NCBI GenBank assembly: GCA_937891465.1
Contig: CALAHF010000222.1
Span: forward strand, 1 to 34,773
DNA: 34,773 bases
Source of the DNA: an uncultured Verrucomicrobiales bacterium
Lineage (GTDB): Bacteria > Verrucomicrobiota > Verrucomicrobiia > Verrucomicrobiales > DEV007
Reading direction: 5' to 3'
This document shows, piece after piece, positions 8,078 to 34,763 of this stretch. The notes below the pieces were generated by a model. That model saw nothing but the letters and a program-made list of their open reading frames with translations. It did no database searches and was not told the origin of the DNA. Position 1 is the first letter of the stretch. Each line of letters starts with the position of its first letter. Both the position numbers and the translations under genes were made by a program.

Positions 8078-8174
8078 GCTGCCTGACCGAATTGATTCAT
8101 CGATTTATCCCATTTGGTCGTTTTTTTTTCACGATCAAACCCTATCGAATCGTTAGACAGACCCTGTTGGGTCG
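8078..8174. repeat. dispersed palindromic element, locus 2 (two 43-bp units)
   Basis: Unit a (8078-8120) is degenerate but keeps TTCATCGA in the centre and a right arm near ATCCCATTTGGTCG. Unit b (8132-8174) keeps ACCCTGTTGGGTCG on the right and has the inverted 7-mer ACCCTAT in the left arm. The period is 54. The T-rich spacer (eight or more T at 8121-8129) could add terminator activity after the small upstream gene. It ends 15 bp before the pckG start. Confidence 0.75.
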
Positions 8175-12291: not shown

Positions 12292-12409
12292 CGAATCAAC
12301 AGGGCAACAAGCTGGCTTGCCAGTGGTCTGAGGATTCTCGCGAAGCGGAACCGAAAGACAGCCCTACGAATTAATAGGGTAGGTTCGACGAACAGACCCT
12401 GTTGATTTG
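12292..12409. repeat. dispersed palindromic element, locus 3 (half unit + structured insert + full unit)
   Basis: The left arm of a 43-bp unit (CGAATCAACAGGGC, 12292-12305) is followed by a structured segment (12301-12365) instead of the rest of the unit, then a complete unit at 12367-12409 (left arm CGAATTAATAGGGT, centre GTTC-GAC-GAAC, right arm ACCCTGTTGATTTG). It fills most of the icd to MFS gap and ends 105 bp before the MFS start. Confidence 0.85.
12301..12365. ncRNA. candidate three-stem structured element, copy A
   Basis: The closing stem AGGGC (12301-12305) / GCCCT (12361-12365) encloses hairpin P2 (CTGG-CTTG-CCAG) and hairpin P3 (TTC, bulged T, CGC-GAA-GCG, GAA). It aligns over 57 nt without gaps to the copy at 26334-26400, with compensatory changes in P1 and P3. 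Whether it acts as RNA or as DNA is not known, nor is its strand. Confidence 0.5.
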
Positions 12410-12514
12410 TTGTGGGTAATCGATATCCCGATTCATGACGAAATGTGGGATTGCGCTTTGAGAGGAAAGTGGTCAAGATTCGGGCTTCAACTTTTTTCCT
12501 GATTTTATCCTGTT

Positions 12515-13876
12515 ATGAATTCGACCGTTGTCCGCCTTTCTTTGATGATGTTTATCCAGTTTTTTGTCTGGGGAACTTGGTTTTCGACTATTAACCAAGC
12601 GCTGGCATCGAATCAGTTGGGTGATTTTATTGGAGGGACCTATGGAACGGTTCCGTTGGGGGCCATTTTTGCTCCGTTGTTTCTCGGTATCATTGCGGAT
12701 CGATTTTTTCCATCCCAACGAGTAATGGGGGTTCTTTTTCTGATCGGCGGCGTGCTGATGTATTTCGCTGGGAATGCAGCGGAAGCGGGCAATGGGCCGC
12801 TCATGGTGAATCTTTTCCTCGGCCACATGCTGTGCTACATGCCGACATTGGGACTTGGAAACACGATTGCTTTCACTCATTTGAATCGAATCGATTTTCC
12901 AAAAATTCGGGTCTGGGGAACGATCGGTTGGATTGCCGCAGGCCTTGCCGTTGGGTTTCTCGGTTGGAGTTCGAATTTGGATATCATGAAACTCGCCGCG
13001 GGGAGCTCGATTGTTCTCGGCGTTTTTGCTTTTTTTCTGCCTCACACGCCTGCACCTGCTAAAGGCCAGAGAATCGATCTTCGAGCGTTGTTGATGCTTG
13101 ATGCCTGGAAGCTGCTCAAAAAGCCTTCGTTCTTTGTGTTCATCGTTTGCTCCGGTTTAGTCTGCATTCCATTGGCCTATTACTTCGGCGCAACAGGCAA
13201 TTATCTGACGAATGCCGGATATGAGGAAGCGGCTTCGACAATGACGATTGGCCAGATGTCAGAGATCTTTTTTATGCTTCTGATTCCGTTTTTCTTCCGT
13301 CGACTTGGTGTGAAATGGATGATCTTGGTCGGGATGTTGGCGTGGGTTGCCCGTTATCTCTTGTTTGCTTATGGCGCTCCGGATCAAGTGGTTTGGATGC
13401 TGTTTCTCGGCATCGCACTTCACGGAATCTGCTACGATTTCTTTTTCGTCACTGGCTTCATGTATACCGATACAGTGGCTCCTAAGGAGGTGCGGAGTCA
13501 GGCGCAAAACATGCTCGTTTTCATTACTCAAGGCATCGGGATGTATATCGGATATGGCATCGTTTTCGGTCTTTCGATTTTCGGTTTGAAGATTTACGAC
13601 GGCAAGTTTGGTGACGTTGCTGGATACGGACCGTTGAATGATGCGATGGGGGCTGCTCGTGGCACAGGCGAAGAGCTGACGTATTTCCAGAAGATGGCGA
13701 AGATGTTCACCGTCGACATGCCTGAAAAAGTGGACGGAAATCTTGTCACTACCGCAATGGAGCAGTGGAAAACGTTCTGGTTTGTTCCAGCGATCATGGC
13801 GGGTGTCATCGCGGTTATTTTCTTCCTCACGTTCTGGGATAAAACGAAAGTGGGTAACGAAGACGACGACGCGTAA
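12515..13876 (+). CDS. MFS transporter, nucleoside:H+ symporter-like
   Basis: A 453-aa integral membrane protein with about 12 hydrophobic segments and an N-terminus (LSLMMFIQFFVWGTWFSTI) typical of the nucleoside:H+ symporter (NupG/XapB-like) branch of the major facilitator superfamily, which is common in PVC genomes. A short basic motif (ADRFFPSQRVMG) follows TM2, as expected for MFS motif A. The substrate could be a nucleoside or a sugar. An oxidoreductase gene begins 18 nt downstream, suggesting coupled uptake and oxidation. The C-terminus is acidic and cytoplasmic. Confidence 0.85.
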   Translation: MNSTVVRLSLMMFIQFFVWGTWFSTINQALASNQLGDFIGGTYGTVPLGAIFAPLFLGIIADRFFPSQRVMGVLFLIGGVLMYFAGNAAEAGNGPLMVNLFLGHMLCYMPTLGLGNTIAFTHLNRIDFPKIRVWGTIGWIAAGLAVGFLGWSSNLDIMKLAAGSSIVLGVFAFFLPHTPAPAKGQRIDLRALLMLDAWKLLKKPSFFVFIVCSGLVCIPLAYYFGATGNYLTNAGYEEAASTMTIGQMSEIFFMLLIPFFFRRLGVKWMILVGMLAWVARYLLFAYGAPDQVVWMLFLGIALHGICYDFFFVTGFMYTDTVAPKEVRSQAQNMLVFITQGIGMYIGYGIVFGLSIFGLKIYDGKFGDVAGYGPLNDAMGAARGTGEELTYFQKMAKMFTVDMPEKVDGNLVTTAMEQWKTFWFVPAIMAGVIAVIFFLTFWDKTKVGNEDDDA

Positions 13877-13894
13877 ATCGATTTTTAATTCGAC

Positions 13895-14971
13895 ATGGCG
13901 ACGTTAAAAATTGCAGGGGTCAATTTTGATCACTTCCACATGGGCGATCTGTTGCGGATGGTTCACGAGCATCCGAACGCGGAAATCGTTGGGATTTCCG
14001 ACGAGCAGCCGGAACGAATGTTGGAGGCTCAGTCAAATTTTGGGCTGACGGATGATCAGGTTTTTACGGATTACTCTGAGTGTCTCGAAACGACGAAACC
14101 CGATGTAGTGATCCTATGTCCGGCGGCGGCTAGACACGCTGAATGGACTGAAAAAGTCGCGCCGTTTGGCGTTCACATTTTGATGGAAAAGCCTTTCGCA
14201 GCGACACTGGCTGAAGCAGATCGGATGATCGCTGCAATGGCGAAAAGTGGAAAGGAATTGGCGATCAATTGGCCGCTGCGCTGGGTGGCTTCGCATGTGA
14301 AAACGCAGGAACTGATTAGCGGGGGCGCGATCGGTGACGTGCAGGAAGTTCACTTTTATGACGGAAATCGTGGGCCGCTTTGGCATGGCGCGGACAAGAT
14401 TGAGCATGAGCCGACGGATGCGGAAAAAGATGCGAGTTGGTTTTATAAAAAGGCTGAGGGAGGCGGTAGTTTGCAGGACTATCTGGGATACGGCACCACT
14501 TTGGGAACCTGGTTTCACGACGGAAAAAAACCGAGCGAGGTGATGGCGATGTGGAATTTGAATTCCAAAAATGATGGGCTCGAAGTGGATGAGCACAGCG
14601 TGACCGTGGCGCGATATCCCGGTGTGGGATTGTCGAAATTTGAAACCCGCTGGGGAACGTTTTCGGACCCATGGGTGACCCAACCGCAGCCGGTTTGCGG
14701 GTTTGTGATCAAAGGAACGGAGGGCACGATTGCGAGTCCCGATTATGCCTCGACCGTCAGGTTGCAGAATGTGGATCATCCGGAGGGCATCGAAATTGAG
14801 GTGCTGCCGCTCGAAGCTCCTTTCGCGAATCCCGTTCAATATTTTTTGGATTGTCTCGAAAGCGGCGCGCCGATTGAAGGCCCGCTAAGCATTGAAATGT
14901 CTCGAATTGGGCAGGAGATTGTTGATGCTGCGTTTCAAAGTGCGGAAGAGGACAGGGCGGTTCGGCTTTGA
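13895..14971 (+). CDS. Gfo/Idh/MocA family oxidoreductase
   Basis: A 358-aa NAD(P)-dependent oxidoreductase of the sugar / inositol dehydrogenase type. The N-terminal Rossmann domain carries IVGISDEQPERMLEAQ and the catalytic-lysine motif MEKPFAATLAEAD (about residues 95-107). The C-terminal alpha/beta domain starts near SGGAIGDVQEVHFYDG, and a WFYKKAEGGGSLQDYLGYG block replaces the usual GGG.LxDxGxH segment. It lies 18 nt after the MFS gene and is probably co-transcribed. It lacks a signal peptide, so it acts in the cytoplasm on imported substrate; the exact sugar is unknown. Confidence 0.88.
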   Translation: MATLKIAGVNFDHFHMGDLLRMVHEHPNAEIVGISDEQPERMLEAQSNFGLTDDQVFTDYSECLETTKPDVVILCPAAARHAEWTEKVAPFGVHILMEKPFAATLAEADRMIAAMAKSGKELAINWPLRWVASHVKTQELISGGAIGDVQEVHFYDGNRGPLWHGADKIEHEPTDAEKDASWFYKKAEGGGSLQDYLGYGTTLGTWFHDGKKPSEVMAMWNLNSKNDGLEVDEHSVTVARYPGVGLSKFETRWGTFSDPWVTQPQPVCGFVIKGTEGTIASPDYASTVRLQNVDHPEGIEIEVLPLEAPFANPVQYFLDCLESGAPIEGPLSIEMSRIGQEIVDAAFQSAEEDRAVRL

Positions 14972-14979
14972 CTTCCCCA

Positions 14980-15004
14980 ATTCCCGATTAGAATAGTCGG
15001 GAAT
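14980..15004. promoter_or_regulatory. inverted repeat at the start of the Rrf2-type gene
   Basis: ATTCCCGA (14980-14987) and TCGGGAAT (14997-15004) are perfect 8-bp inverted arms with a 9-bp centre, ending 4 bp before the GTG start. The CC-N13-GG spacing within it is the same as in IscR type 2 sites, though other positions differ. It is a plausible autoregulatory operator, or a hairpin masking the start. Confidence 0.45.
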
Positions 15005-15008
15005 ACTC

Positions 15009-15437
15009 GTGAAAATTTCTAAAAAAGCCGAATACGCGTTGCGAGCGATGGTAATCCTCGCTGATTCGCCACCGAACAAGCCCCACCAAATTCAGGATTT
15101 GGCGCAAAAAGGCTCGGTTCCGGTGAAATTTCTTGAGCAAATTTTGCTGATGCTGAAACGTTCCGGGCTTCTCAAAAGCAAGCGGGGTATTGGCGGTGGC
15201 TATCAGCTCAACCGCGAAGCGCGGACAATTTCGGTCGCGGAGGTGATCCAGGCAATCGATGGAACTTTGTGTTCGCTGGCTCCGAATGCGGCGGATTTAC
15301 CGGATTTTCGAGGGGCTAATGGGCTTCACGAAACATTGCAAAAAATCGACAGCACGGTGAATGAGCAACTTTGGGCCCAGTCGTTGGAGGACATTTTGGA
15401 GTCCGAGTCCGCCGCGGGTGCCGGTTTTATGATTTGA
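15009..15437 (+). CDS. Rrf2 family transcriptional regulator
   Basis: A 142-aa Rrf2-type winged-helix regulator starting at GTG 15009 (MKISKKAEYALRAMVILAD, the family opening). The wing and recognition region are VPVKFLEQILLMLKRSGLLKSKRGIGGGYQLNR. Only one cysteine is present (Cys about 88, in LCSLAPNA), whereas Fe-S-binding members such as IscR use three, so a cluster like theirs is unlikely. The family regulates Fe-S, cysteine or redox genes. No sulfur-metabolism gene is adjacent, so the target is unknown. It converges with the helicase gene, with only 5 bp between the stops. Confidence 0.9.
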   Translation: MKISKKAEYALRAMVILADSPPNKPHQIQDLAQKGSVPVKFLEQILLMLKRSGLLKSKRGIGGGYQLNREARTISVAEVIQAIDGTLCSLAPNAADLPDFRGANGLHETLQKIDSTVNEQLWAQSLEDILESESAAGAGFMI

Positions 15438-15442
15438 TCAAA

Positions 15443-18400
15443 TCACCCGACGGTGACAACCCGCTTCAATTTGGTGAACAGAAGCTGCGTCTCGATTTTC
15501 TCGGGCGGCAGATTAATCATTTTGGAAAGTACTTCACGATAGGTTTCGAGCTGTGGCCGATAGGTGTCGACTTTTGCGGCCAAGGCAGAGGCGCTTCCAT
15601 CGGAAATTTGATCGGTTTTGAAATCGAGAATGGTGGCTTTGTCGGATTCAATAACGACACGATCAAACGTTCCTGAGAGCCATTCTTCACCCAATAAAAT
15701 TTCAAATCGTCTTTCAAGCCAGCATGTTGCTTCGTCGGAAGGTTTGCTCAATGCCGTGCGGATTTCATCAACAGCGAGACAGGTTTCGACTTCTTTGAGC
15801 GCTTGTTTTTTCAGATGGTCGTCGTCAGCGGTAATGGCGGCAAATGTCGCAGTCAATTCGTCGGAACTGACAGCATCCAGCCATTCGATTTTTTCAAAAA
15901 AAGCGTGAACCAAAGTTCCGTAATTTCGCGCATCGCGACCTGATCGGCTGAACAATTGCGCTGCGGAAACTGTCCGCATTTCTGAACCACTCGGCGTGCG
16001 ACGGCGCGGACGTTTGCGATCGATATCCTTAATCTTAATCGATTGTTCGGTCTCCGAATCAGATCCGGTTGGAATTTCTTTTTGCCGATCCGTATACCAG
16101 TTCCAATTCGTGGTCGGGCCATCGTTTTCGTAAATCACATCGACCTCGAGGCCGCCGTGAAGCGTCTTCGATTCTGGTTCATCCGCCGACAAACAGCGGT
16201 CCAGTAAATAGATGAAATTCTTCGAAGTGGACTTTTTGTTGGGTGGCTCGGAAATCAAATAGTTCGCCTGACGAGCCCGAGTCAGAGCGACGTAAAATTT
16301 GCATAGGTTTTCATAGGCGGACCCGGCTTCACCCTCAGTCCGAAAGTCGCTGAGCACTTCATCAGCTTCAACAATCATCGTCGTGGGTAAGTCGTAAACC
16401 CATTCGACTTGCCGCTCCGCATTTCGTTTCACGCCGATGTTATTTCTAACCGAAGTCATTTTTGTGCCGCTCAAATCGGGAAGGATCACCGCATCAAAAG
16501 TGAGACCTTTCGATTTGTGAACCGTCATGATTTGCACCGCTCCTTTTGTATCGGTTTCGCGAATCGTAAATCGCTCGGCGTAGCTGATAAATTCATCGAT
16601 ATCACGGCTGCCGCTTTGATCGAAAATCCGCGCGGCGAGTGCCAGTTCCTCGGCACGATTTCGCGAGAACGTGCTCAGTTCGAGTCCTGATTTCTCCAGC
16701 TCATCGGCCCATGACCGCAGGCAGGCTTCAAAGCCTTGTTCGAAAATTTCGCGTAGAACACGATCCGCAACTTGGCCTCGGCCGAGTTCCTCGTTTTCAA
16801 AAACGTCAGCAAAAGGCGTCATGCCGAGGTGATGCCACGCGAAGGTATTTCCGGGATGACCGGCAAATTTCAGGAGGCTCAGCAACGCGAGTGTCAGGGG
16901 ATTATCCGTCGCGATGTGAATGTCCGCTTCGCTCATCACCGGAATATTCGATTCCGAATTTGCCCGAATGTAATCTACAAGCGCCTGACTCACCTTGTTG
17001 GTCTGAACTAAAATCGCGCACGAAATTCCGCGATTGATCGGATCAATCTCTTCGAGCAACGCTACCACCACGGCGAATTTGTCTTCCTGCTGAACCTTTT
17101 TTCCGTCGGTGTAAGGCTGCGGATTGATCCAACCGCAGTATCCGGGTAAATCGGAATTCGGAGGTGCCACAATATGCTCGCCCCATTTCCAGCGCTTCAT
17201 CGCCGCATCGGGAAACCCCATTTCATCAAAGTGTGAATTCTTCGTGAAAATTAAGTTGGCCGTGTCGATCACGTCATGCCCCGAGCGCCATGAAACATTG
17301 AGGTCACGCTTCAGAATATGCGCGCCCGGCTTGTCGCCACCGTATTTTTTGAAAATGTCCTCGAACAGCTTGGTGTCGCCGCCGCGCCACGAGTAAATAG
17401 CCTGTTTCACATCACCTACCTGAAACAAACTGCGCTCGCCTTCGGGATCCTGAACCGCTTCATCGACGAGGTTCTCGATGACATTCCACTGCATCACGTT
17501 GGTGTCCTGAAATTCATCGAGCAGCCAGTGATCGTATTGCGAATCAAGCCGGTAATCGATTCGCATCCGCGTGTCGTCGCCGGGAATTTGCGACAAAATT
17601 GGCGCGGGATGATCGTTTCCAAATTCATGGCCAGCGAGAATTAGCTCCATGTCCTGAAACGTCAGTTGGCCTCTCCGCCGTACGAGTTGGGCGTAGGCCG
17701 CTTCATAGCGCGAAAGGATTTCCCACATTCCGTGAGTCCGTTTCAGCTTGGTTTCCAGTTCAGCGCCGATCAGCTTTCGGGTGATGTCAGTCAAAGTTCG
17801 GCAGACTTCGCCTTTCAATTCGTATTTTTTCCCGCCAATTGGAAAGGCTGCGTCACCGCGTAGAATGCCGGGCCAGAATTTCAGCAGCGCCTTTAAAAAA
17901 TAATCGACCCTTGCTGGGAGGGGTGAACCCGCATTGTGAGCGGGAGCTTGCTCACGAAACTCATTCCAAAAATCCCACTGCTTTTCGGTGATCGCGTCGT
18001 CTTTTTCCAGCTGAGCAAAAAGTCGCGAAAAAAGCGCGTCCAGATTGTCCGTCACGCCAAACCAATCGGAGCCTTCCGGCCAGACGGCATCGACATTTCC
18101 CCACTTTTCGACTGAGGCGGCCTGCAAATAAACTTCGTGCTGATCTTCGACAAACTGATCGAGAACGCGGCGAATTTTTGATTCTTCTTTACCAAACGTT
18201 GCTTGTCGAAACGCTTCCAGAAATTCCTCTTGCGCGTCATTCACGCCATACGGCTGACGTTTGAAGACGTGCTGATAAACCTGCTGTCGGGCAATCGCCG
18301 CTAGGTGATCGTCAATGACTTCGAAATCTCCGGCGAGGCCAAATTCCGCAGGAAACGTTCGCAATATATTCGAGAAAAAACTGTCCAGTGTATTTAGGAA

Positions 18401-18742
18401 AAGTCGCGGCATCCGATCGATGAAAACGCGGAGCAATTCGCGATATTTCCCCTGGTCGAGCTTCGAAAGCACGGGATAAAGCGGGTCATCTTTCGCCGGA
18501 ATCAATTTCGCAGCTTCTTTCGGATCATCCGCCGCTTTCGCGAGCTTCGTCAAAATGGAATCAAAAAATTCCCCTGCGGCTTTGCGCGTAAACGTTACCG
18601 CAACAATCCGTTCCGGCCGAACTTCCTTTCCGGAAAGCAAATCTGCGCCCATCAGAGCGATGTAGCGATTGGTGAGCTGAAACGTTTTTCCCGACCCCGC
18701 TGAGGCCAAAATCATTTCGTTGGGAATTGGTGCGTTGCTCAC
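15443..18742 (-). CDS. AddA/RecB-like UvrD-family helicase with C-terminal nuclease
   Basis: A 1099-aa superfamily 1A helicase-nuclease. Motifs in order: Walker A ASAGSGKT (13-20), VAVTFTRKAA (48-57), DEFQDT (409-414), VGDVKQAIYSWRG (442-454), MTVHKSKGLTFDAV (739-752) and FYVALTRAR (816-824). A PD-(D/E)XK nuclease of the AddA/RecB type ends the protein: His946 (GTLVHAFFE), Asp1027, Asp1040 and Lys1042 (ILDFKTD) and the QLETY motif (1064-1068) are all present, so it should be catalytically active. It is predicted to process double-strand break ends with a partner (AddB-like), but no partner gene is adjacent on either side. Palindromic element 4 begins 62 bp upstream of its start. Confidence 0.92.
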   Translation of the reverse strand: MSNAPIPNEMILASAGSGKTFQLTNRYIALMGADLLSGKEVRPERIVAVTFTRKAAGEFFDSILTKLAKAADDPKEAAKLIPAKDDPLYPVLSKLDQGKYRELLRVFIDRMPRLFLNTLDSFFSNILRTFPAEFGLAGDFEVIDDHLAAIARQQVYQHVFKRQPYGVNDAQEEFLEAFRQATFGKEESKIRRVLDQFVEDQHEVYLQAASVEKWGNVDAVWPEGSDWFGVTDNLDALFSRLFAQLEKDDAITEKQWDFWNEFREQAPAHNAGSPLPARVDYFLKALLKFWPGILRGDAAFPIGGKKYELKGEVCRTLTDITRKLIGAELETKLKRTHGMWEILSRYEAAYAQLVRRRGQLTFQDMELILAGHEFGNDHPAPILSQIPGDDTRMRIDYRLDSQYDHWLLDEFQDTNVMQWNVIENLVDEAVQDPEGERSLFQVGDVKQAIYSWRGGDTKLFEDIFKKYGGDKPGAHILKRDLNVSWRSGHDVIDTANLIFTKNSHFDEMGFPDAAMKRWKWGEHIVAPPNSDLPGYCGWINPQPYTDGKKVQQEDKFAVVVALLEEIDPINRGISCAILVQTNKVSQALVDYIRANSESNIPVMSEADIHIATDNPLTLALLSLLKFAGHPGNTFAWHHLGMTPFADVFENEELGRGQVADRVLREIFEQGFEACLRSWADELEKSGLELSTFSRNRAEELALAARIFDQSGSRDIDEFISYAERFTIRETDTKGAVQIMTVHKSKGLTFDAVILPDLSGTKMTSVRNNIGVKRNAERQVEWVYDLPTTMIVEADEVLSDFRTEGEAGSAYENLCKFYVALTRARQANYLISEPPNKKSTSKNFIYLLDRCLSADEPESKTLHGGLEVDVIYENDGPTTNWNWYTDRQKEIPTGSDSETEQSIKIKDIDRKRPRRRTPSGSEMRTVSAAQLFSRSGRDARNYGTLVHAFFEKIEWLDAVSSDELTATFAAITADDDHLKKQALKEVETCLAVDEIRTALSKPSDEATCWLERRFEILLGEEWLSGTFDRVVIESDKATILDFKTDQISDGSASALAAKVDTYRPQLETYREVLSKMINLPPEKIETQLLFTKLKRVVTVG

Positions 18743-18804
18743 AAAATCAGATTGCGCTGGTTCGATAAAACTTCAATTCGGAATTTTCTCGAGACCTCAT
18801 TTTT

Positions 18805-18901
18805 CGAACCAACAGGGTACATTCATCGTAAAGACCCTGCACGTTCGTGGAGCCCTTTCGAACCAATAGGGTTGGTTCGTCGAACGCACCCTATTGGATC
18901 T
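18805..18901. repeat. dispersed palindromic element, locus 4 (two 43-bp units)
   Basis: Unit a 18805-18847, unit b 18859-18901, 11-bp spacer, period 54. Unit b is a near-perfect palindrome: CGAACCAATAGGGT, GTTC-GTC-GAAC, ACCCTATTGG. Relative to locus 6 it shows the covarying pair C:G to T:A (CAATAGGGT/ACCCTATTG versus CAACAGGGT/ACCCTGTTG). It lies between two minus-strand genes, upstream of the helicase gene. Confidence 0.88.
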
Positions 18902-18913
18902 AAAATCGTCTTT

Positions 18914-19936
18914 TCACTTTAGCACCTTGCAATCAGGATCGATTGTAACGGGAGCTCCTGTTTTGTCGATGGGGTGCGTGAACAGATATTTCCAAACGGA
19001 TTCGTGTGCGAATGTGCCGTCTTCGTTTTTGGCTGATGAACCACCCGGCGTGACCATACCGTGGGCTTTCTTATCGTTTCCGCCGACGTCTGCATCTGAA
19101 ACCAGACGTCGGGAATTCCCAAACGGTGCCGGAGTTTTATCGACGTTTACGATCGGGCCAAACTCGTTGAGGCCGAGCATTTGCCAGGAGCGGCAGTAAT
19201 GATTGCCAGACCATCCACCGTCGAGGACGTGGCTGAATCCGAAGAAGCGATTTGCTGGCGTCGCGGAAGGGAAGCCTTGCCATTTTTGGAATCGATCGCG
19301 GGGCCCGCAAAACATGACGACTCGGCCGACTTTCTGATGAACGGCGAAACGCGCGGAGGTCGTTGAGCCGTGTGAGCTGCCGGCCATGATGACGCTTTCC
19401 CAGATCAAATCCTTGCCGTCTTTGGTAACAAACTGGCCCCATTTTCCCTCGGGATTTTCTTTTTCGAGCCACTTCACAAACGTGAGCGCTTTGGCCTTCA
19501 TGCCGTCTGGTTTTGGAATGTCGACGAGCTTGCTGTGATCTTCGCCAGTTGCGGCTTCCAGCCGAACTTCGCCAAGACTGGAATCGTCGCTTCGCGCAGA
19601 ATCGGGGACGAGCCCGAACCATCTGTTGGCGTAATGAACCTGAATTCCGTGAAGGCCATAGCTCGATGTGCGATCGAATAAATTGCGATTGTGACCCATC
19701 AGCCAGATGACGAGCTTGCCTTCCGACTTAACGCGCGTGTCGACTGCTCCGTATTGCAGGTCAGCAGGCTTGCCTTTTTGGTCAGCAAAAACGTAGCCGA
19801 TTTCAGGGTGCTCTTTTGCCTCTGGATTGATTTCGCTGGCGCGAACGCTCAGCTTATAGCGGTCGCCTTTGTGATTCTGGCCGAGAGCCGGGAGTGCTGC
19901 GGCGATCGCGAGAAAGAGGAAGAAGTTTAATTTCAT
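18914..19936 (-). CDS. secreted alpha/beta-hydrolase-like protein
   Basis: A 340-aa secreted protein (signal peptide MKLNFFLFLAIAAALPALG). The core reads as an alpha/beta hydrolase with a Ser nucleophile elbow in VIMAGSSHGSTTSARF, preceded by a strand VIWLMGHN and followed by RVVMFCGPRD. His candidates lie near the C-terminus. It resembles the uncharacterised BPSS1187-type family seen in planctomycetes and verrucomicrobia, but I cannot confirm the family without a search. The substrate is unknown; it acts in the periplasm or outside the cell. The stop is 12 bp from palindromic element 4. Confidence 0.7.
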   Translation of the reverse strand: MKLNFFLFLAIAAALPALGQNHKGDRYKLSVRASEINPEAKEHPEIGYVFADQKGKPADLQYGAVDTRVKSEGKLVIWLMGHNRNLFDRTSSYGLHGIQVHYANRWFGLVPDSARSDDSSLGEVRLEAATGEDHSKLVDIPKPDGMKAKALTFVKWLEKENPEGKWGQFVTKDGKDLIWESVIMAGSSHGSTTSARFAVHQKVGRVVMFCGPRDRFQKWQGFPSATPANRFFGFSHVLDGGWSGNHYCRSWQMLGLNEFGPIVNVDKTPAPFGNSRRLVSDADVGGNDKKAHGMVTPGGSSAKNEDGTFAHESVWKYLFTHPIDKTGAPVTIDPDCKVLK

Positions 19937-20019
19937 GGTTAATCAAAGTTGAACGCGAACGGTGAGCTTTTCAATTGGTTGAGAACACTGATTAAGGTCT
20001 TTGCCTGTTTCAGACAGAC

Positions 20020-20052
20020 TTGACAAGGCGAGAACCAACTCAGTAGTCTCGC
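20020..20052 (+). promoter_or_regulatory. putative promoter with overlapping inverted repeat
   Basis: TTGACA (20020-20025) is a perfect -35 box. A weak -10 candidate, TAGTCT (20044-20049), follows at 18-bp spacing. Inverted arms GCGAGA (20028-20033) and TCTCGC (20047-20052) cover the spacer and the -10 region and could be an operator. It precedes the broken SDR gene by 16 bp. Confidence 0.35.
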
Positions 20053-20068
20053 ATGAACCAACTGGAGC

Positions 20069-20814
20069 ATGGAAAACAAAACAATCATTATCACAGGAGC
20101 CGCTGGAGAGATTGGCTTTGCCGCCGCTAAACGTTTCGCGAAAGCGGGTGCCAACGTCATGTTGGTCGACATTGATAAAAAAGCGCTGCAACAGCGAGCA
20201 GGCGAACTTGATTCTCCAAAGATTGCTTTTTTCGCCGTAGACGTTACAAAGGAAGGCGACGTTCAGGGGTACGTCGAAGCTACCAAATCGGCATTCGGAT
20301 CGATCGATTTATTTTTCAACAACACGGGAATCGAGGGCAAAGTGGCCCCGTTGAAGGCACTCGATATGGAGAGGACTTCGATCGAGTCATGAAAGTGAAT
20401 GTTTATGGAGTCGCGATGGGCATGAAGCACGTTTCGCCCGAAATCAATGACGGGGGAAGTATCGTAATCACCTCTTCCATCGCAGGGCTGCAGGGGATTC
20501 CTGGAATGACAGCCTATAACACTACCAAACACGCCGTAGTCGGGATTATGCGCACGGCAGCCCTGGAGCTAGCTGATCGCAAGGTGCGGGTAAATACGGT
20601 GCACCCCGGTGTCATTGAAAGCCGTTTGATGAGGAGTCTTGAAAGCGGAATGGGTGACCAATAGGCGGTTCATGACGGATTGGAGCAACAGGTTCCTCTC
20701 AAGCGTTATGGTCAAAAAGAGGAGGTGGCTGAAATGGTTTTCTTCCTTCTTAGCGACAATGCGGGTTATTGCAATGGTAGCACTTACGTCATGGACGGTG
20801 GGTTGTTGCTGTGA
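20069..20814 (+). pseudogene. short-chain dehydrogenase/reductase, frameshifted and with in-frame TAG
   Basis: A classical SDR (about 248 aa when restored) in pieces. The first frame (20069-20392) gives the NAD-binding motif TGAAGEIGFAAAKRFAKAG and NNTGIEG, then derails at about 20367-20374 (ATGGAGAGGACTTC). Either a 2-nt duplication or a 1-nt deletion restores the expected EDFDRVMKVNVYGVAMGMKH. The second frame (20389 onward) has the catalytic Ser (VITSSIAG) and Tyr-x-x-x-Lys (AYNTTK), then TAG at 20662-20664. The same frame continues to TGA 20812-20814 with the family C-terminus (VPLKRYGQKEEVAEMVFFLL, NGSTYVMDGG). Two independent lesions make this a pseudogene. The catalytic residues are still present, so decay is recent. 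Confidence 0.88.
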
Positions 20815-20843
20815 TCGGAAAAATAAAATGATATCCACCTATT

Positions 20844-21878
20844 TTGAATAAATTTCTTCTTGTGAAGCTGTCCCTCTCCGTGCTTGTGGCAGGCCTTGCC
20901 ATTTGCGGGCAGACATCATGCACTTGTGTGAATCAGCAGGCAGATGAAAAGATGCTGCTAGTCATGGGACAGGCTCAGATTGATTTGAAGCCACTCGCGT
21001 CATCTGAATCTTCAAATCTGACGATCGCTCAGCACCAATACCTCAATTTCTATGGAGTCCGAAAAGCAGGGGAGCATCAACTGGGTTCCTTTCCATCTGG
21101 CGATCTCATGCTTGCGGGGCAGTTTCTGGAGCCAGCCGAAAAAACAGAGAAAGGCACGGTCATTATGGTTCATGGCTACTTTGATCACGCCTACGCCACG
21201 GTAAATTTGATCAATTATTTGGTGGGTGAGGGGTATCATGTTGCGATTTTTGATCATGCCGGTCATGGGTTATCAGACGGGAAGAGAGTTTCTATCTCAG
21301 ACTTCGGTATCTATCGAAAAGGTTTTTCAGATTTTTTGGACGTGGTTTCTAAAGAGTATCCGCCTCCGTATGGTGTCGTGGCGCACAGCATGGGCTCGAC
21401 CGTTGTCATTGACCATCTGGATAAGAATGGGACTGCTCCGATTCGCCGACTCGTTTTCCTCGCCCCTCTCATCAAGGACACAAAATCCAGAGGGCTCCAC
21501 CTTTTAGGGGCGTCTGTTTCTCCTTTTGCGGACTATCTGATCCGTATTCCGGAAGAGAATTCTTCAAACAAGGATTACAGGAAATTTACAGTGAGAGATC
21601 CGTTGCAGTTTCAATGCGTCTCAACCCGCTGGGCAGTCGCGTTTAATCGATGGCGGAGGGCATTCGATGATTCGAATTCACGTGCAGAGCCCCCTTTAAT
21701 TATCTATGCGGGAAAAGATACCGTCGTTGATAATGACTTTGGTCGAGAATGGCTAAGTCGAGTGTTTCCCGACCGCGAGGAAGTTGAGATTGAAGGCGCA
21801 GGCCATCAATTGCTTAATGAAACGGATCCTATTCGCGAGCGGGTTTTGGACCTGATCAGTGGAGAGCTGAGCCGGTAA
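20844..21878 (+). CDS. lysophospholipase / monoacylglycerol lipase-like alpha/beta hydrolase
   Basis: A 344-aa protein starting at TTG 20844, or at GTG 20862, which would give a tighter signal sequence (MKLSLSVLVAGLAIC...). The N-terminus is hydrophobic with several cysteines (AICGQTSCTC); a lipoprotein is possible but the lipobox is not canonical. The hydrolase motifs are HGYFDHAYAT, DHAGHGLSDGKRV, nucleophile VAHSMGST, acid IYAGKDTVVD and base EGAGHQLLNE, matching the monoacylglycerol lipase / lysophospholipase group. It lies 29 bp after the broken SDR and converges with the large cytochrome gene (22-bp gap). Confidence 0.82.
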   Translation: MNKFLLVKLSLSVLVAGLAICGQTSCTCVNQQADEKMLLVMGQAQIDLKPLASSESSNLTIAQHQYLNFYGVRKAGEHQLGSFPSGDLMLAGQFLEPAEKTEKGTVIMVHGYFDHAYATVNLINYLVGEGYHVAIFDHAGHGLSDGKRVSISDFGIYRKGFSDFLDVVSKEYPPPYGVVAHSMGSTVVIDHLDKNGTAPIRRLVFLAPLIKDTKSRGLHLLGASVSPFADYLIRIPEENSSNKDYRKFTVRDPLQFQCVSTRWAVAFNRWRRAFDDSNSRAEPPLIIYAGKDTVVDNDFGREWLSRVFPDREEVEIEGAGHQLLNETDPIRERVLDLISGELSR

Positions 21879-21900
21879 CGGTCGGAAGCCAACCGGAGCC

Positions 21901-24900
21901 TTATTTCAGCGTCTGTAAATATCCGACGAGATCAACCAATCCCTGTTCGCCAACTACAGAGGCAAGACCGGGAGGCATCAGGCTGTCTTCCATTTGGGTC
22001 GATGATTTCACCTCCTTTTTCGGAACGCTTTGTTGAACGCCTCCGGGAAGCCTTATTTGAATTTCTTCATCGGTTTCACCCGTCATAAATCCAACCAATG
22101 ACGTGCCGTCATTTTTCTCGATTGTCACTCCGTGGAAACCGTGACTGATCCCCGCACTCGGATACAGAACTGACTGAAACATGGCTTCGCGGCTCAGTTT
22201 GTTGCCGATTTCGCTGAGGTCAGGGCCGAAGTTGACGCCTACGCCGCGTACCTGATGGCAGGTTGCACACGTCGCTTTGGTGAAATTTTCTGCGCCGGAT
22301 TTGGTGTCACTCTTCATGGCGATCAGCTCGGTGAGCGGTTTAAAATTATCTGCTCCCATGGCTTTCGGGAGCGGCAGGGTTTTGGCGGCTTCGTCGCGGA
22401 GGCGTTTGTCGGGACTGCGGGTAAACGCGAGTGCGGTAGCGGCTCTCAAGGAAGCGTCCAACTCACCAGACTTCGCGATCTTCAGCAGTTCATTACCGCC
22501 GTTCGATGACATCGCCATCGCGTCGACGAGGATTTTATCTGCGCCCACAGGGAGATCATCACGCTTCAGCAATCCACCGAGGAGCCCACTGACTGCGCGC
22601 TCGTTCGTTTTTCCGATCGCAGAAGCGATTGCGCTGACACGATTCAAATCGTCTGGACTCGTAAGAAGTTTCCGAACGTTTCCCTGATCGCGAAGCAACA
22701 TCCGAGCAGCGCTGACCGATTCCGGTGCTGTAGGATTGGCTGCGATGAAATCAGCGAGTTCGGAATCAAATCCTCGCAGGTTGAGTTTGTCTGCGAGAGA
22801 AATAAATTCTGCTTTGCCGCGCACAGGAGCGAGTAGATCTTCAAGACGTTCGGTGCCGCCTTCGATTTTTTCGATCTGTTCTTTCCCGATTTTTCCGGCA
22901 GCAACAAGCGCCAGTTCTGAATCTGCTTTTCGAAATACCGATTCGTAAGCGGCGGTTTGAGATTCTTTGGATTGAAAATCGAGACCTCGCAGAAAACTCG
23001 AATCCGAATCAGTTGAGGCCACAAGTGCATTGGCGATTGTTTCTGCCGAATTTGTTCCGCGCGAACGCCAGACAATGTCAGCATGCGGCTTTGTTTCGCC
23101 GAGCGCCGCCAATCGTGCATCCCAATGCAAATCCGCGCCAATACCAAGCGCTTCGAGATACCAGCGGTCTTCGCCGTCGTATTGCAGTGCGAGTGTGGCC
23201 CAGGTTTCGCTGGCTGCTTTGGAATCGTGAAAACGAAGAGCGACCGCAACTTCGCGGCGAACTTGTGGGTTTTTGTCTGCAGCAAGTTTCTTCAGAACGG
23301 CTTGAAACGCCTCAAGCCGGCCTTCGGGATGCACGCCGTAACACTCACGCCAGGCTCGGAGCCCTGTGATGCGCAGATCAGGATTCTCCTCCTCGAGGGC
23401 TCCTGCAAGGAGAGGGTTTTTGTGACCGAATAAACTCGTCGTGAACCAAATCAATCGAGCCTTGCCCACGGTGTCAGCGGCTTCATAAACCTCGATAAGA
23501 CGCTTGGTGGTGTGCTCATGGAATCCCTGAGTTGGGTCGGCAAATAGATTCCAAATGTGGAACCGCTCCGACATATTCGGCGTGGACACGAATCTCTCGT
23601 AGAGACTGACTGCCGTTTTTGAATTTTTCTCGTCGCCTTCGCTCGGAAGCTTTTTGTTCACGGTGTAGACTTTTTCGCCCCCCTTCGGGATCACCCGAAA
23701 AATTCGTCCCTTCGCGATATCGCCCATCGCATGGCCGCCCACGCCGGGATCATACCAGTCAGCAACAAACAGCGATCCGTCGGGAGCAACGCAAGCATCG
23801 CTAGGGCGAAACCAGCGATCATTCGTGCTGCTCAAAATGTTCAGCATCTCACCAGAGTATCCCGCTCCATCGTTTTTACGGGGATAGGCGCGAACCACGT
23901 TAGGACCAGCATCGCAATGAATCACCTGACCGTGAAAAATTTCTGGCAACAGATCGCCTTCGTAAACGCAGATGCCGGTAGGTGAACCCGCACCGGTTTG
24001 GAGGAAATTCGGGACGACGCCAGGATCATTGAGGTGCCAATGCTGTTCTGGAATCGTGCTTTCCAAGCCGGGGCGCGGATCGCGCCAGCCTGCGCCGGTG
24101 ATCTCGTCTTTGTAACCGTAGTTCCCGTACTCCATGACATAATTAATGCGCACGCCCTTGTTGCCGTCATCGTCGTTGTCGGACTGCCAGATCGTGCCGA
24201 AGGAATCGACGCAGACTTCCCAGTTGTTGCGGAAATTCCAGCCTAACATTTCGACATTTTTCCCATCGAGGTCGCAGCGAAAAACCATGCCTTCTTGAAA
24301 AGGGCGATTACCCTGGTTGGTACATTTTACGCCGTTGATATCAGTGATGATATTTCCCTCGGGATCGCACAGCTGCTTGCCCGCGTTACCGAAATTGAAA
24401 TATAACCGTCCGTCCGGGCCGAAGTGAAAGGCGTGAATCCCGTGGTCGTGCTGGGCTCCGCCGATTTTCGTGAACATCAATTCTTTGCTGCCTTCATCGG
24501 CTTTTCCGTCGCCATTGCGATCGTAAAGCGAAAAGACATCGTCGCCTGCGGAAATGATAACGCGATCTCCCAGCACACAAATCCCGTGGGCGGAATCCAC
24601 ATCGTTGCCCTGATAGAATATGGTCGATTTATCTGCTTTGGCGTCGCCGTCGGTGTCTTCGAGAATCATGATCTTATCGCCACCCTCACGCTTGCCCTGA
24701 TTCCGGCGATAGTTCACGACATCGCAAACCCAGACGCGACCGCGCGCATCGATATCGATCGAGCTGGGCGAGCCAATCATCGGTTCACTGGCAAAAAGTT
24801 GCGCTTCGAGCTCGGGATGAACTTCGAGTGCTGCGAGGGCATCTTCGGGTTCGCCACCACCTCCGCCGCCCGTGCTTTTTTTCGCGACGGCTGCGCCGGG

Positions 24901-26298
24901 ATTCTCGGTGTAGACCAGAAATTTCACGCTGGATTCAGCCGCGCCACCATTTTGGCTCGTTCCACCGTCGTCGAGCATTCCGCGTGCTTTAAATTCTGTC
25001 GCGCCCTTGGGAAGATCAAATGCGACAATTGAGGGCGCGTGCGTGCCGATTCCGTATTCGATTCTCACACCGTTCACTGCCATTTCCTGGCCGCCCGCGT
25101 TTTGATTTTTCCGAGTCCCGCCCCAGCCGTGCGTTTCAGACTTCCAATCCAGATCCGTGAGTTTCTTCTCCGAACCATCAGCCATGACAAATCGCGGCTC
25201 CGCCCAGTTTGCCCAATCGAAAGAGTAGCCACCGCAGTCGTCGGCCACGAGATAGATTTCCTTAGCGCCCTTTGGGAGTTTCACAGCGATGTCGGTCGAG
25301 TGCCCCTTTGTCTTTCCGTTTTCGACAGGCTTCGATTCAAAGAGCGGCTTCGCATTCGGGTTCGCCGCCGCTGTTTTTTTCGGCTTCGGCTTACGGTTCT
25401 GATCGCCCCCGTATTTTGCCGCGTTTTCTTCAAGAAATTCTGTCGAAGGCTTTTCCGTTTCGATACCGTTCTTCGGAATCTCCAAACCAGACATCCATGC
25501 GACGCCGTTCAGCACCGTCTTACGGAAGCTGTTTTCCTGCCAGTTCTTGTGATAATGCAGCCCGGTAAAACCAAAGCCACGGCCCTTCTTGTAATCTTCA
25601 CCGCGCTCATAAGCCCAGGCGACGTGTTGCGGTTCTCCGGCAGCGACTTTTTTCCGCACCGCTGGATTTCCTGAATGCGGTCCGTCCCCACGCTTCATAG
25701 TTTCTTCCGGCGCGATGGCTGACAGGATTGGCTCGACACCTCGCATTCCTTGCTGAAAACGCATGTGGAAATACCACTCGTCGTCGCTTTTGAACGGTTT
25801 CACCCCGTTCGCGACGGGGTGTTTTGAAAACGATTTGAACTCGGCCACCCAATGCGGATTCACCGACCAGTTTGCTTCGAAGTATCCCCCCGCCCAGTTC
25901 AACATGCCCTTTGCCGAAGGGCCGATGGGAACTTCAACTCCGTAGTGGAGGCATGATAACCCCGCTCCGGTTTTCATCACTTTATCGAATTCGGGAACGT
26001 GCTTGTTCACGACATGACCGCCACCGCCCGAACAGAAAAAGACGACGCCATCCGCATCTTTGAAAAACTCTTCTTCATTTTCCGGCCATGGAATCGCATG
26101 GCGCCCCTCGATCCTCGCGCCGGGGTATTGCGCTTTCAGCCAATCTTCGATGAGATGACACCCAGCCGAATACTCATGATTCATGAAGCCATGCGACGTC
26201 TTGTGCCCCACAAAACAGATCACCGTTTTTCCATCGCCGTTGATGTCGGCTTTTGCGACGGGAGCGATGAAATTGATGGCCGCAAAAAAGCACAACAT
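21901..26298 (-). CDS. ThuA-NPCBM-dehydrogenase-HEAT-cytochrome c multidomain secreted protein (PVC type)
   Basis: A 1465-aa exported protein from ATG 26298 (signal MLCFFAAINFIAPVAKA). TTG 26304 would add an Arg and is an alternative. Domains in order: ThuA-like (about 20-310; VGHKTSHGFMNHEY, FFCSGGGGHV, GFTGLHYHKNW); NPCBM-like sugar-binding sandwich (about 345-490; VADDCGGYSFDWANWAEPRF); a Gly-rich linker; a PVC-type membrane-bound-dehydrogenase beta-propeller (from about 505; IDIDARGRVWVCDVVNYRRN, VFSLYDRNGDGKADEG); alpha-helical HEAT-like repeats; and a C-terminal cytochrome c with CATCH (Cys1344, Cys1347, His1348) and a likely Met ligand in MEDSLMPPG. It probably oxidises a sugar derivative and passes electrons to its own heme. 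The open frame continues upstream to 26484 but that part is repeat element 5. Confidence 0.9.
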   Translation of the reverse strand: MLCFFAAINFIAPVAKADINGDGKTVICFVGHKTSHGFMNHEYSAGCHLIEDWLKAQYPGARIEGRHAIPWPENEEEFFKDADGVVFFCSGGGGHVVNKHVPEFDKVMKTGAGLSCLHYGVEVPIGPSAKGMLNWAGGYFEANWSVNPHWVAEFKSFSKHPVANGVKPFKSDDEWYFHMRFQQGMRGVEPILSAIAPEETMKRGDGPHSGNPAVRKKVAAGEPQHVAWAYERGEDYKKGRGFGFTGLHYHKNWQENSFRKTVLNGVAWMSGLEIPKNGIETEKPSTEFLEENAAKYGGDQNRKPKPKKTAAANPNAKPLFESKPVENGKTKGHSTDIAVKLPKGAKEIYLVADDCGGYSFDWANWAEPRFVMADGSEKKLTDLDWKSETHGWGGTRKNQNAGGQEMAVNGVRIEYGIGTHAPSIVAFDLPKGATEFKARGMLDDGGTSQNGGAAESSVKFLVYTENPGAAVAKKSTGGGGGGEPEDALAALEVHPELEAQLFASEPMIGSPSSIDIDARGRVWVCDVVNYRRNQGKREGGDKIMILEDTDGDAKADKSTIFYQGNDVDSAHGICVLGDRVIISAGDDVFSLYDRNGDGKADEGSKELMFTKIGGAQHDHGIHAFHFGPDGRLYFNFGNAGKQLCDPEGNIITDINGVKCTNQGNRPFQEGMVFRCDLDGKNVEMLGWNFRNNWEVCVDSFGTIWQSDNDDDGNKGVRINYVMEYGNYGYKDEITGAGWRDPRPGLESTIPEQHWHLNDPGVVPNFLQTGAGSPTGICVYEGDLLPEIFHGQVIHCDAGPNVVRAYPRKNDGAGYSGEMLNILSSTNDRWFRPSDACVAPDGSLFVADWYDPGVGGHAMGDIAKGRIFRVIPKGGEKVYTVNKKLPSEGDEKNSKTAVSLYERFVSTPNMSERFHIWNLFADPTQGFHEHTTKRLIEVYEAADTVGKARLIWFTTSLFGHKNPLLAGALEEENPDLRITGLRAWRECYGVHPEGRLEAFQAVLKKLAADKNPQVRREVAVALRFHDSKAASETWATLALQYDGEDRWYLEALGIGADLHWDARLAALGETKPHADIVWRSRGTNSAETIANALVASTDSDSSFLRGLDFQSKESQTAAYESVFRKADSELALVAAGKIGKEQIEKIEGGTERLEDLLAPVRGKAEFISLADKLNLRGFDSELADFIAANPTAPESVSAARMLLRDQGNVRKLLTSPDDLNRVSAIASAIGKTNERAVSGLLGGLLKRDDLPVGADKILVDAMAMSSNGGNELLKIAKSGELDASLRAATALAFTRSPDKRLRDEAAKTLPLPKAMGADNFKPLTELIAMKSDTKSGAENFTKATCATCHQVRGVGVNFGPDLSEIGNKLSREAMFQSVLYPSAGISHGFHGVTIEKNDGTSLVGFMTGETDEEIQIRLPGGVQQSVPKKEVKSSTQMEDSLMPPGLASVVGEQGLVDLVGYLQTLK

Positions 26299-26325
26299 AC
26301 GCAAAAATCGATCTAATGTGAAAAA

Positions 26326-26446
26326 CGATCGAACAGAGACAAAAGCTGGCTCGCCAGCGGTCTGAAGCTGCTCGGGAACCGGCAGCGCAAGATGTCTCTG
26401 ATACAAATAAACAGAGTTGGTTTGATGAACAGACATGGTTGGATCG
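26326..26446. repeat. dispersed palindromic element, locus 5 (half unit + structured insert + full unit)
   Basis: Same architecture as locus 3: left arm CGATCGAACAGAGA (26326-26339), structured segment to 26400, and a diverged full 43-bp unit at 26404-26446 with centre GTTT-GAT-GAAC. It lies 27 bp upstream of the cytochrome gene start and is read through by the spurious 5' extension of that frame. Confidence 0.8.
26334..26400. ncRNA. candidate three-stem structured element, copy B
   Basis: Closing stem CAGAGACA (26334-26341) / TGTCTCTG (26393-26400), hairpin P2 CTGG-CTCG-CCAG, and hairpin P3 GCTGC, bulged T, CGG-GAA-CCG, GCAGC. Relative to the copy at 12301-12365 the base pairs change in concert in P1 (G-C to A-T, C-G to A-T) and P3 (C-G to G-C, T-A to G-C), which is evidence for selected pairing. 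Confidence 0.5.
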
Positions 26447-26507
26447 TAAAATCTCATGGTCGGATTTTGCATGAAATCCGCCACCCTGACAAGCCGCTGG
26501 TTTGCGG

Positions 26508-29838: not shown

Positions 29839-29935
29839 CGACCGAACGGTAGCTGATTTACGATCCAACCCGATGGATTCGTTTTGACTTTTCGAACCAA
29901 CAGGGTCTGTTCGATGAACCAACCCTGTTGGTTCG
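29839..29935. repeat. dispersed palindromic element, locus 6 (two 43-bp units)
   Basis: Unit a (29839-29881) is degenerate; unit b (29893-29935) is the best palindrome in the window: arms CGAACCAACAGGGT and ACCCTGTTGGTTCG are perfectly complementary over 14 bp, with GTTC-GAT-GAAC at the centre. The period is 54. It occupies the divergent gap between the phosphoesterase fusion and thiH, 43 bp and 13 bp from the two start codons. Confidence 0.9.
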
Positions 29936-29948
29936 TGAAAACGTCTCG

Positions 29949-34679: not shown

Positions 34680-34720
34680 GGTTCGCAATCTGCCGATTTT
34701 TCGACAAATCCACAATCGCA

Positions 34721-34763
34721 CGAATCTACCCTGTTCATTTGCCGAACGAACCCTGTTGATTCT
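34721..34763. repeat. dispersed palindromic element, locus 7 (one unit, cut by window end)
   Basis: One 43-bp unit: the left arm CGAATCTACCCTGT carries the inverted 7-mer, the right arm is ACCCTGTTGATTCT. The window ends 10 bp after it, just before a second unit at 54-bp period would begin. It lies 41 bp upstream of the sulfatase start. Confidence 0.75.

Follow-up and report, generated by a model that had tools for sequence, protein, structure and literature searches.

A branched, covarying head on the arms of a palindromic repeat in a genus of uncultured Verrucomicrobiales

Short palindromic repeats are common in bacteria. The described systems closest to the element reported here are the REP, REPIN and BIME repeats with their RAYT (TnpA-REP) transposases, for which recognition of one folded strand is set out in PMC8266576, and compensatory changes in REPIN hairpins are among the observations given in PMC3116915. 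CGTC-tagged REPs are presented in PMC3733652 as palindromes without a known transposase, each built as one stem of 8-9 bp with a loop of 4-5, and the spread of these repeats, which lack a RAYT, is treated there as unsettled. The account in PMC3049150 describes the BOX elements of Streptococcus pneumoniae as modular, parasitic and apparently dormant, with an optional boxB that folds largely alone and varies in copy number, and that in PMC1525189 deals with insertion sequences that target REP palindromes.

Here we analyse a stretch of 34,773 nt (the window) from an uncultured Verrucomicrobiales bacterium (GCA_937891465.1, CALAHF010000222.1). It is contig G000:C222 of the source genome, G000, which comprises 5.97 Mb in 229 contigs; a sister species, G001, was the sole other genome of the same genus searched.

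Two copies of the head and the repeat that carries them

The window holds two copies, A and B, of a branched head, each beside a 43-bp palindromic unit. Their features are listed below, where R1 is a covariance model built from an alignment (A2, see below) that includes copies A and B among its training sequences.

12292..12304, plus strand: left arm of copy A, CGAACCAACAGGG-type, which bears the head (read from the sequence)
12301..12365, plus strand: three-stem head of copy A (R1 match 12299-12367, 88 bits, E 1.4e-26; fold; covariation)
12301-12305/12361-12365, P1 of copy A; 12311-12315/12320-12324, P2; 12326-12329/12356-12359, P3a; within 12332-12352, P3b
12366..12410, no strand assigned: second arm, GTTCGACGAAC centre and right arm of copy A, forming the 43-bp palindromic unit (repeat families D1-D4)
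26326..26338, plus strand: left arm of copy B (read from the sequence; 3 mismatches to the arm; L021)
26334..26400, plus strand: three-stem head of copy B (R1 match 26333-26401, 87.2 bits, E 2.7e-26; fold)
26334-26340/26394-26400, P1 of copy B; 26345-26349/26354-26358, P2
26403..26447, no strand assigned: 43-bp unit of copy B (the orthologous place in G001, L147 1915-1959, has the unit without the head)

A gap-free alignment of 57 nt with 14 differences had been reported between the two copies, and it holds for 12309-12365 against 26343-26399, registers shifted by 1 to 4 giving 40 or more differences. The paired differences reported with it are likewise present in the letters: two double changes in the closing stem (G-C to A-T and C-G to A-T), two in P3 (C-G to G-C and T-A to G-C) and an A·C mismatch that becomes C-G. 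The invariance that the preliminary description ascribed to hairpin P2 and to a bulged T, however, does not survive comparison. P2 differs between copies A and B at 12318 (T/C, in the loop) and at 12324 (T/C, turning G·T into G-C), and across 89 copies it carries compensated changes, its third pair being U-A in 53 and G-C in 28; at the bulged position 23 of the 89 copies have T and 41 have C. Folded as single sequences, copy B is strong (z -3.62, with 0 of 200 shuffles as good) and copy A weak (z -1.60, 15 of 200). The head had also been said to replace most of a first 43-bp unit, which fits the anatomy of the copies, but the congener has a 43-bp unit without the extra arm and head; because such a unit stands there alone, 'added to a unit' is the better wording.

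The repeat that carries the head on one of its arms, CGAACCAACAGGGT-nnGTTCGnnGAACnn-ACCCTGTTGGTTCG, is palindromic and far more abundant than the head. A half-unit pattern (at most 3 mismatches, both strands) has 900 matches in G000 and 1298 in G001, tallies in which a palindrome may count twice, against 0 in both genomes for a control, and at most 14 in any of 72 other genomes of the family searched. Just upstream of 54 of the 59 G000 heads stands an arm with no more than 4 mismatches, as against 15 of 832 random windows; by the same limit a second arm follows 38 of the 59, and 36 have arms on both sides. Only 10 of the 30 G001 heads have such an arm upstream, and 12 of the 20 armless ones stand, as judged by eye, on AACTTC- or AACTCC-type necks. 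Heads also occur in tandem on one strand (L006, L016, L119, L124 and, with three, L128), their match starts 73-81 nt apart. The inverted ends expected of a MITE are supplied by the arms only together with the unit, and no clean target-site duplication was found among the 59 G000 copies, 38 of which have the second arm noted above.

Within the window the 43-bp repeat occurs at 2297-2400, 8126-8174, 12366-12410, 18800-18905, 26403-26447, 29889-29938 and 34716-34761, as single or tandem units, with a 22-nt spacing at two places. The inner ACAGGGT/ACCCTGT box can point in either direction within an arm. At six G000 3' junctions (L004, L028, L033, L035, L036 and L042) the second arm gives way to A-rich sequences such as CTAAAAAGGT, CTTAAAAGGT and ATAAAAAAGGT; these A-rich arms are alike enough to look like a sub-type, unlike random decay.

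Extent of the family and covariation of its fold

The heads form a dispersed family of about 60 copies in G000 and 30 in G001. A 23-nt pattern spanning P2 and its 3' flank (at most 3 mismatches) matched 43 times in G000, 22 on the plus and 21 on the minus strand, and its reversed control 0 times; alignment A2 holds 41 of these 43 copies, aligned with MAFFT without structure, both copies of the tandem locus L016 being omitted. A search of G000 with R1 gave 65 matches at E≤1 and 62 at E≤0.01, and a covariance-model search of G001 gave 30 at E≤0.01. From the 62 G000 rows (A3), three weak or odd ones (L115, L116 and L117) were dropped, leaving the 59 used throughout, and from 37 further rows (A4) seven belonging to genome G014 were dropped, leaving the 30 G001 heads; a joint alignment (A6) has 89 rows from both genomes, every row counted. 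The seven G014 matches were left out because they are palindromes, some of them in inverted pairs, that bear a GTAG tag or something close to it and whose likeness to the head lies mainly in P2 and the ten letters after it.

The G014 loci concerned (L083, L089, L093, L095, L097, L099 and L101) carry GTAG-tagged (one GCAG) REPs of GTAGGAAGCTCGCTTGCGAGCGATCTGGG type. Some of these stand as inverted pairs, and their hairpin and next ten letters resemble P2 and P3a of the head.

As far as searched, the head family is abundant in one genus only. Across 288 genomes of the order, 13 besides G000 and G001 match at E≤0.001 (12 of them once and one of them four times, with a best E of 5.5e-8); the search scored 17 candidates per genome, recovered 17 of the roughly 62 G000 copies and can let weak copies escape. 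An exact-pattern scan of genome contigs matched a single record, JABDJT010000317.1, the window's own genome possibly lying outside that scan. Copy B on its own reached only DdR1, at E 7.2, in Rfam, and a literature search, with most subscription journals outside its coverage, returned no description that we recognised as such heads.

The head adopts a predicted branched fold of about 60 nt, with a closing stem P1, a hairpin P2 and an irregular hairpin P3 (P3a and P3b). In A2, 85.9% of cells pair against 78.4% after shuffling, 12 of 22 pairs show double changes, and covariation is 0.213 against 0.114, all six slid structures staying at or below 0.101; RNAalifold predicts 16 pairs on this alignment, covering P1, P2, P3a and part of P3b. 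P2 looks over-conserved in the 41-copy comparison because the search pattern contained it. In A6, whose counts lean toward the R1 structure because the alignment was fitted to that model, 84.9% of cells are standard pairs against 70.5% shuffled, both partners change in 21 of 22 pairs, double-change cells number 248 against 91.9, and covariation is 0.364 against 0.157, with slid structures at most 0.119. None of 500 shuffles reached any of the five covariation measures in A2 or was as high on any measure in A6; the shuffles ignore the relatedness of the copies, so these counts are not probabilities.

Stem variation without compensation is thus not the rule: with 84.9% of cells paired, 69 of the 89 copies keep at least 4 of 5 P1 pairs, 4 of 5 P2 pairs and 3 of 4 P3a pairs, and 20 do not. 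By helix, the paired cells amount to 87.9% (P1), 95.5% (P2), 96.0% (P3a) and 70.8% (P3b), the last being looser, with several registers and bulges in single-copy folds. The conserved three-stem fold of the preliminary description is, judged from sequence, well supported, as the genome-wide copies, for which a covariance model was built, keep their stems through compensated changes.

P1 is the helix freest in sequence, and may differ wholly between copies yet still pair (CAGGGC/GCCCTG, CAGAGAC/GTCTCTG, CAGGGTC/GACCCTG, AACTTCAG/CTGAAGTT, AACTCC/GGAGTT and others). A copy's own P1 strands pair better than swapped ones, at a mean of -9.59 against -7.55 kcal/mol for the 59 G000 copies and -11.02 against -7.75 kcal/mol for the 30 G001 copies, and in neither genome did any of 2000 permutations go as low. 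Because many copies share a neck, just 4 of the 59 G000 copies and 6 of the 30 G001 copies find their single best partner in their own strand.

Mutation alone should yield G·T and A·C about equally often. With the slipped-register pair 40-60 left out, the non-Watson-Crick cells comprise 124 G·T and 39 A·C; that pair alone has 53 A·C and 0 G·T, and counting it shrinks the wobble excess to 124 against 92, while leaving out the G·U-rich pair 32-69 together with 40-60 gives 86 against 39. Pairs 3-76 and 43-58 show the opposite trend, A·C over G·T, and p values for the excess are inexact, the copies being related. From the surplus of G·T over A·C, folding probably takes place in the strand as written, and a cruciform acting alike on both strands is not favoured.

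G·U-rich pairing on one strand, as in the first pair of P3a (G-C 39, G-U 38, A-U 7), also speaks for a reading in which the head is a structured RNA (a small ribozyme, a 3'-UTR stabiliser or an RNA with a role in processing or regulation) whose action depends on its being transcribed, the repeats having served only for its spread. Unpaired letters are conserved round the junction and the P3 internal loop in A2, which points the same way, and the fold would likewise persist if inserted heads came under selection for an RNA function. Against this, Rfam 15 gave 0 matches at gathering score in the window and 0 in 20 head loci, and further evidence comes from the placement of the heads.

Two known builds, the hammerhead core motif and the kink-turn, were compared with the head and rejected. 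Copy A has, by eye, a hammerhead-like CUGAGGA...GAAA, which copy B and most A2 rows lack, and G-C pairs cross this region in single-copy folds; the GA/GNA of the internal loop stands, again by eye, without the three-base bulge of a kink-turn.

Placement, sister-species sites and a possible mode of spread

On rough gene calls from a home-made hexamer scorer trained on the window, by which distances are approximate, called genes contain 2 of 59 G000 heads and 3 of 30 G001 heads; 22 of the 59 start within 40 nt after the end of a gene on the same strand, against 5 that have a gene start at most 40 nt away on that side, a distribution that speaks for the structured-RNA reading. The orientation of the neighbours gives a different picture: both lie on the head's strand in 23 cases and both on the opposite strand in 11 in G000 (p 0.058), with 4 against 8 in G001 and 27 against 19 for the genomes combined (p 0.30). 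The lack of a steady transcription bias tells against an obligate cis-acting RNA and favours an element that works at the DNA level, other RNA readings remaining compatible. Head sites also differ between the two species where they could be compared, and we regard the structured-RNA explanation as unlikely, if still worth keeping in view.

As a measure of orientation relative to replication, oriented GC skew at the heads is null in G000 (34 of 57 loci negative, p 0.64) and negative in G001 (18 of 24 loci, p 0.001).

Six G000 head sites were sought in G001, and four were readable; at the site of copy A and at C226:23214 the G001 matches stop at, or start from, contig ends. All four readable sites have the unit without the head in G001, three clearly and one in a weak alignment. 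At the site of copy B, the orthologous gene lies at the start of G001:C209, and just beyond it comes a 43-bp unit alignable with the right-hand portion of copy B, the left arm and head being absent. The C227 region of G000 is syntenic with G001:C480: at C227:25144, where the flanks align on both sides, a single G001 unit stands in place of the two units and head of G000, and at C227:19011, with the right flank aligned well and the left weakly, G001 has a unit and no head. For C226:17918, G001 contig C393 shows no head but has a unit-like match some 110 bases beyond the conserved flank, in an alignment that is poor past the gene. A scan with model R2 at E≤1 found no head in L147, L213, L214 or L215. 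In the reverse direction, no G000 head stands where G001 has one at L132, the two sharing a gene on one side only. Between 60 G000 and 25 G001 head loci there is one common neighbour gene (77-86% identity, L002/L132), with the heads at different places, in a comparison limited by G001 loci that reach only about 800 bases either side. It drew on the full tblastn table and on those of the 193 blastn matches that were listed; weaker matches, of 26-51% identity, were taken for gene-family likeness.

The G001 units without a head therefore make arm plus head an insertion or deletion module. Aligned sequence at three sites shows it to be a presence/absence module on resident palindromes, and the fourth site is probably of the same kind. 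The empty sites fit gain or loss alike, as precise loss between direct arms would look identical.

We think it rather probable that the head belongs to a small, non-autonomous, REP/BOX-like mobile module that is recognised as a folded single strand and settles on resident palindromes. Such a module, of about 75-80 nt, would consist of one arm of the resident repeat and the branched head with P1, P2 and the irregular P3. An enzyme supplied in trans (HUH/Y1-type, tyrosine-recombinase or similar) would recognise the folded single strand and place the module at the arm of an existing palindromic unit; by an alternative route, replication or recombination at palindromes would copy the module between arms, and the repeated arms could also let arm plus head multiply in tandem or drop out. 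We infer movement by recognition of the folded strand; the module may act as RNA or as single-stranded DNA, and neither is favoured. The G000 copies are diverged, with a mean identity of 0.73, a median of 0.90 to the best partner and a highest value of 0.97, so that the proposed mobility need not be a present one. Points against the module's mobility are that the Y1_Tnp search described below tied no enzyme to the head and that no clean target-site duplication was found.

Heads could instead have no dedicated mobility, being copied between arms by ordinary recombination, slippage or gene conversion, with the fold kept by template switching or hairpin correction in replication. Template switching within a hairpin can itself create compensatory changes, and heads do stand at arms, which are direct repeats, and also follow one another in tandem. 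However, covariation extends to each of P1, P2 and P3 as parts of a single branched shape, the unpaired letters of the junction and internal loop are conserved, and 20 of the 30 G001 heads have no upstream arm within 4 mismatches, and we hold this explanation to be quite improbable. Very doubtful, too, is a bolder version of the mobile module, in which the head itself would be the catalytic or recognised core of a minimal, geneless mobile element: a three-way-junction RNA or single-stranded DNA of about 60 nt that transposes onto resident palindromes, uses any helix as its neck, and does so through a non-RAYT class of enzyme or RNA self-processing of tandem copies.

Recombination sites of the attC type also act as one folded strand, and the neighbour of the G001 unit orthologous to copy B is a gene for an integron integrase of 444 aa (TIGR02249, 341 bits against a cut-off of 265), so that the head might be the branched terminal structure of an attC-like site in an integron-like system. 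The core boxes of attC sites are RYYYAAC/GTTRRRY, with cleavage by IntI. No such boxes were seen in the head by eye, the G001 unit stands at the 3' end of the integrase gene, not the expected cassette side, and the heads are scattered over many contigs; we consider this reading extremely improbable. The integrase gene, at L147 2001-3335 (minus strand) and also in L216 (G001:C209), has an attC-looking stretch, by eye, on its far side.

Comparison with REP, REPIN and BOX elements

A Y1_Tnp search of G000, G001 and G014 turned up a single G000 match at E≤0.01, in an IS200-like gene interrupted by an internal stop; of the two Y1 matches in G001 one falls under the curated cut-off, and the flanks of both carry GTAG palindromes of other sequence. 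No head scored at E≤5 in the nine Y1 loci, and this search of genomes that are 95.6% (G000) and 89% (G001) complete found no cognate RAYT flanked by the head. Two RAYT-like G001 genes, L140 1312-2154 (minus strand) and L142 610-1128 (plus strand), each stand between GTAG palindromes of their own type.

In this one system a resident repeat and the head added to it can both be seen, covariation makes the fold legible, and a sister species supplies empty sites. With these together, it can be asked what copies a branched single strand onto a palindrome, and a covariance model is now available for a family without an Rfam 15 match.

Like REP, REPIN and BIME repeats, the heads are short, dispersed, mostly intergenic palindromes, and the P2 core GGGCTTGCCC of some G001 heads resembles the palindrome GGGGGCTTGCCCCC given in PMC3116915. 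Unlike them, they form a three-way junction on a variable neck. No GTAG precedes P2 in the 41 A2 rows or in the G001 rows listed, where CGACA, ACAAA, GGCAA and TCAGA are usual, and there is no inverted REP pair making one hairpin, P2 and P3 differing in sequence. Because the GTAG tag and the association with a RAYT were both looked for and not found, we do not file the heads as REPs; with tag and transposase absent, membership of the RAYT/REP system is rejected. Many G001 heads have GACGTC on their 3' side, as in CGTC-tagged REPs, but GATAGCC and GATGTC are the commoner forms in G000, and the heads are branched. Like the insertion sequences that target REP palindromes, the head is a second element settled in a resident palindromic repeat, whereas those sequences encode a transposase and a head of about 60 nt is too short to do so. 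BOX offers a likeness of build, not of kinship: there are units without a head, and heads that are single, double or triple. Compared by description, not by sequence, the heads differ from BOX in that no ends like boxA or boxC were recognised, and in that the head module adds an arm to a unit that is also very numerous alone. By analogy, then, the module would work like REP/REPIN and BOX elements.
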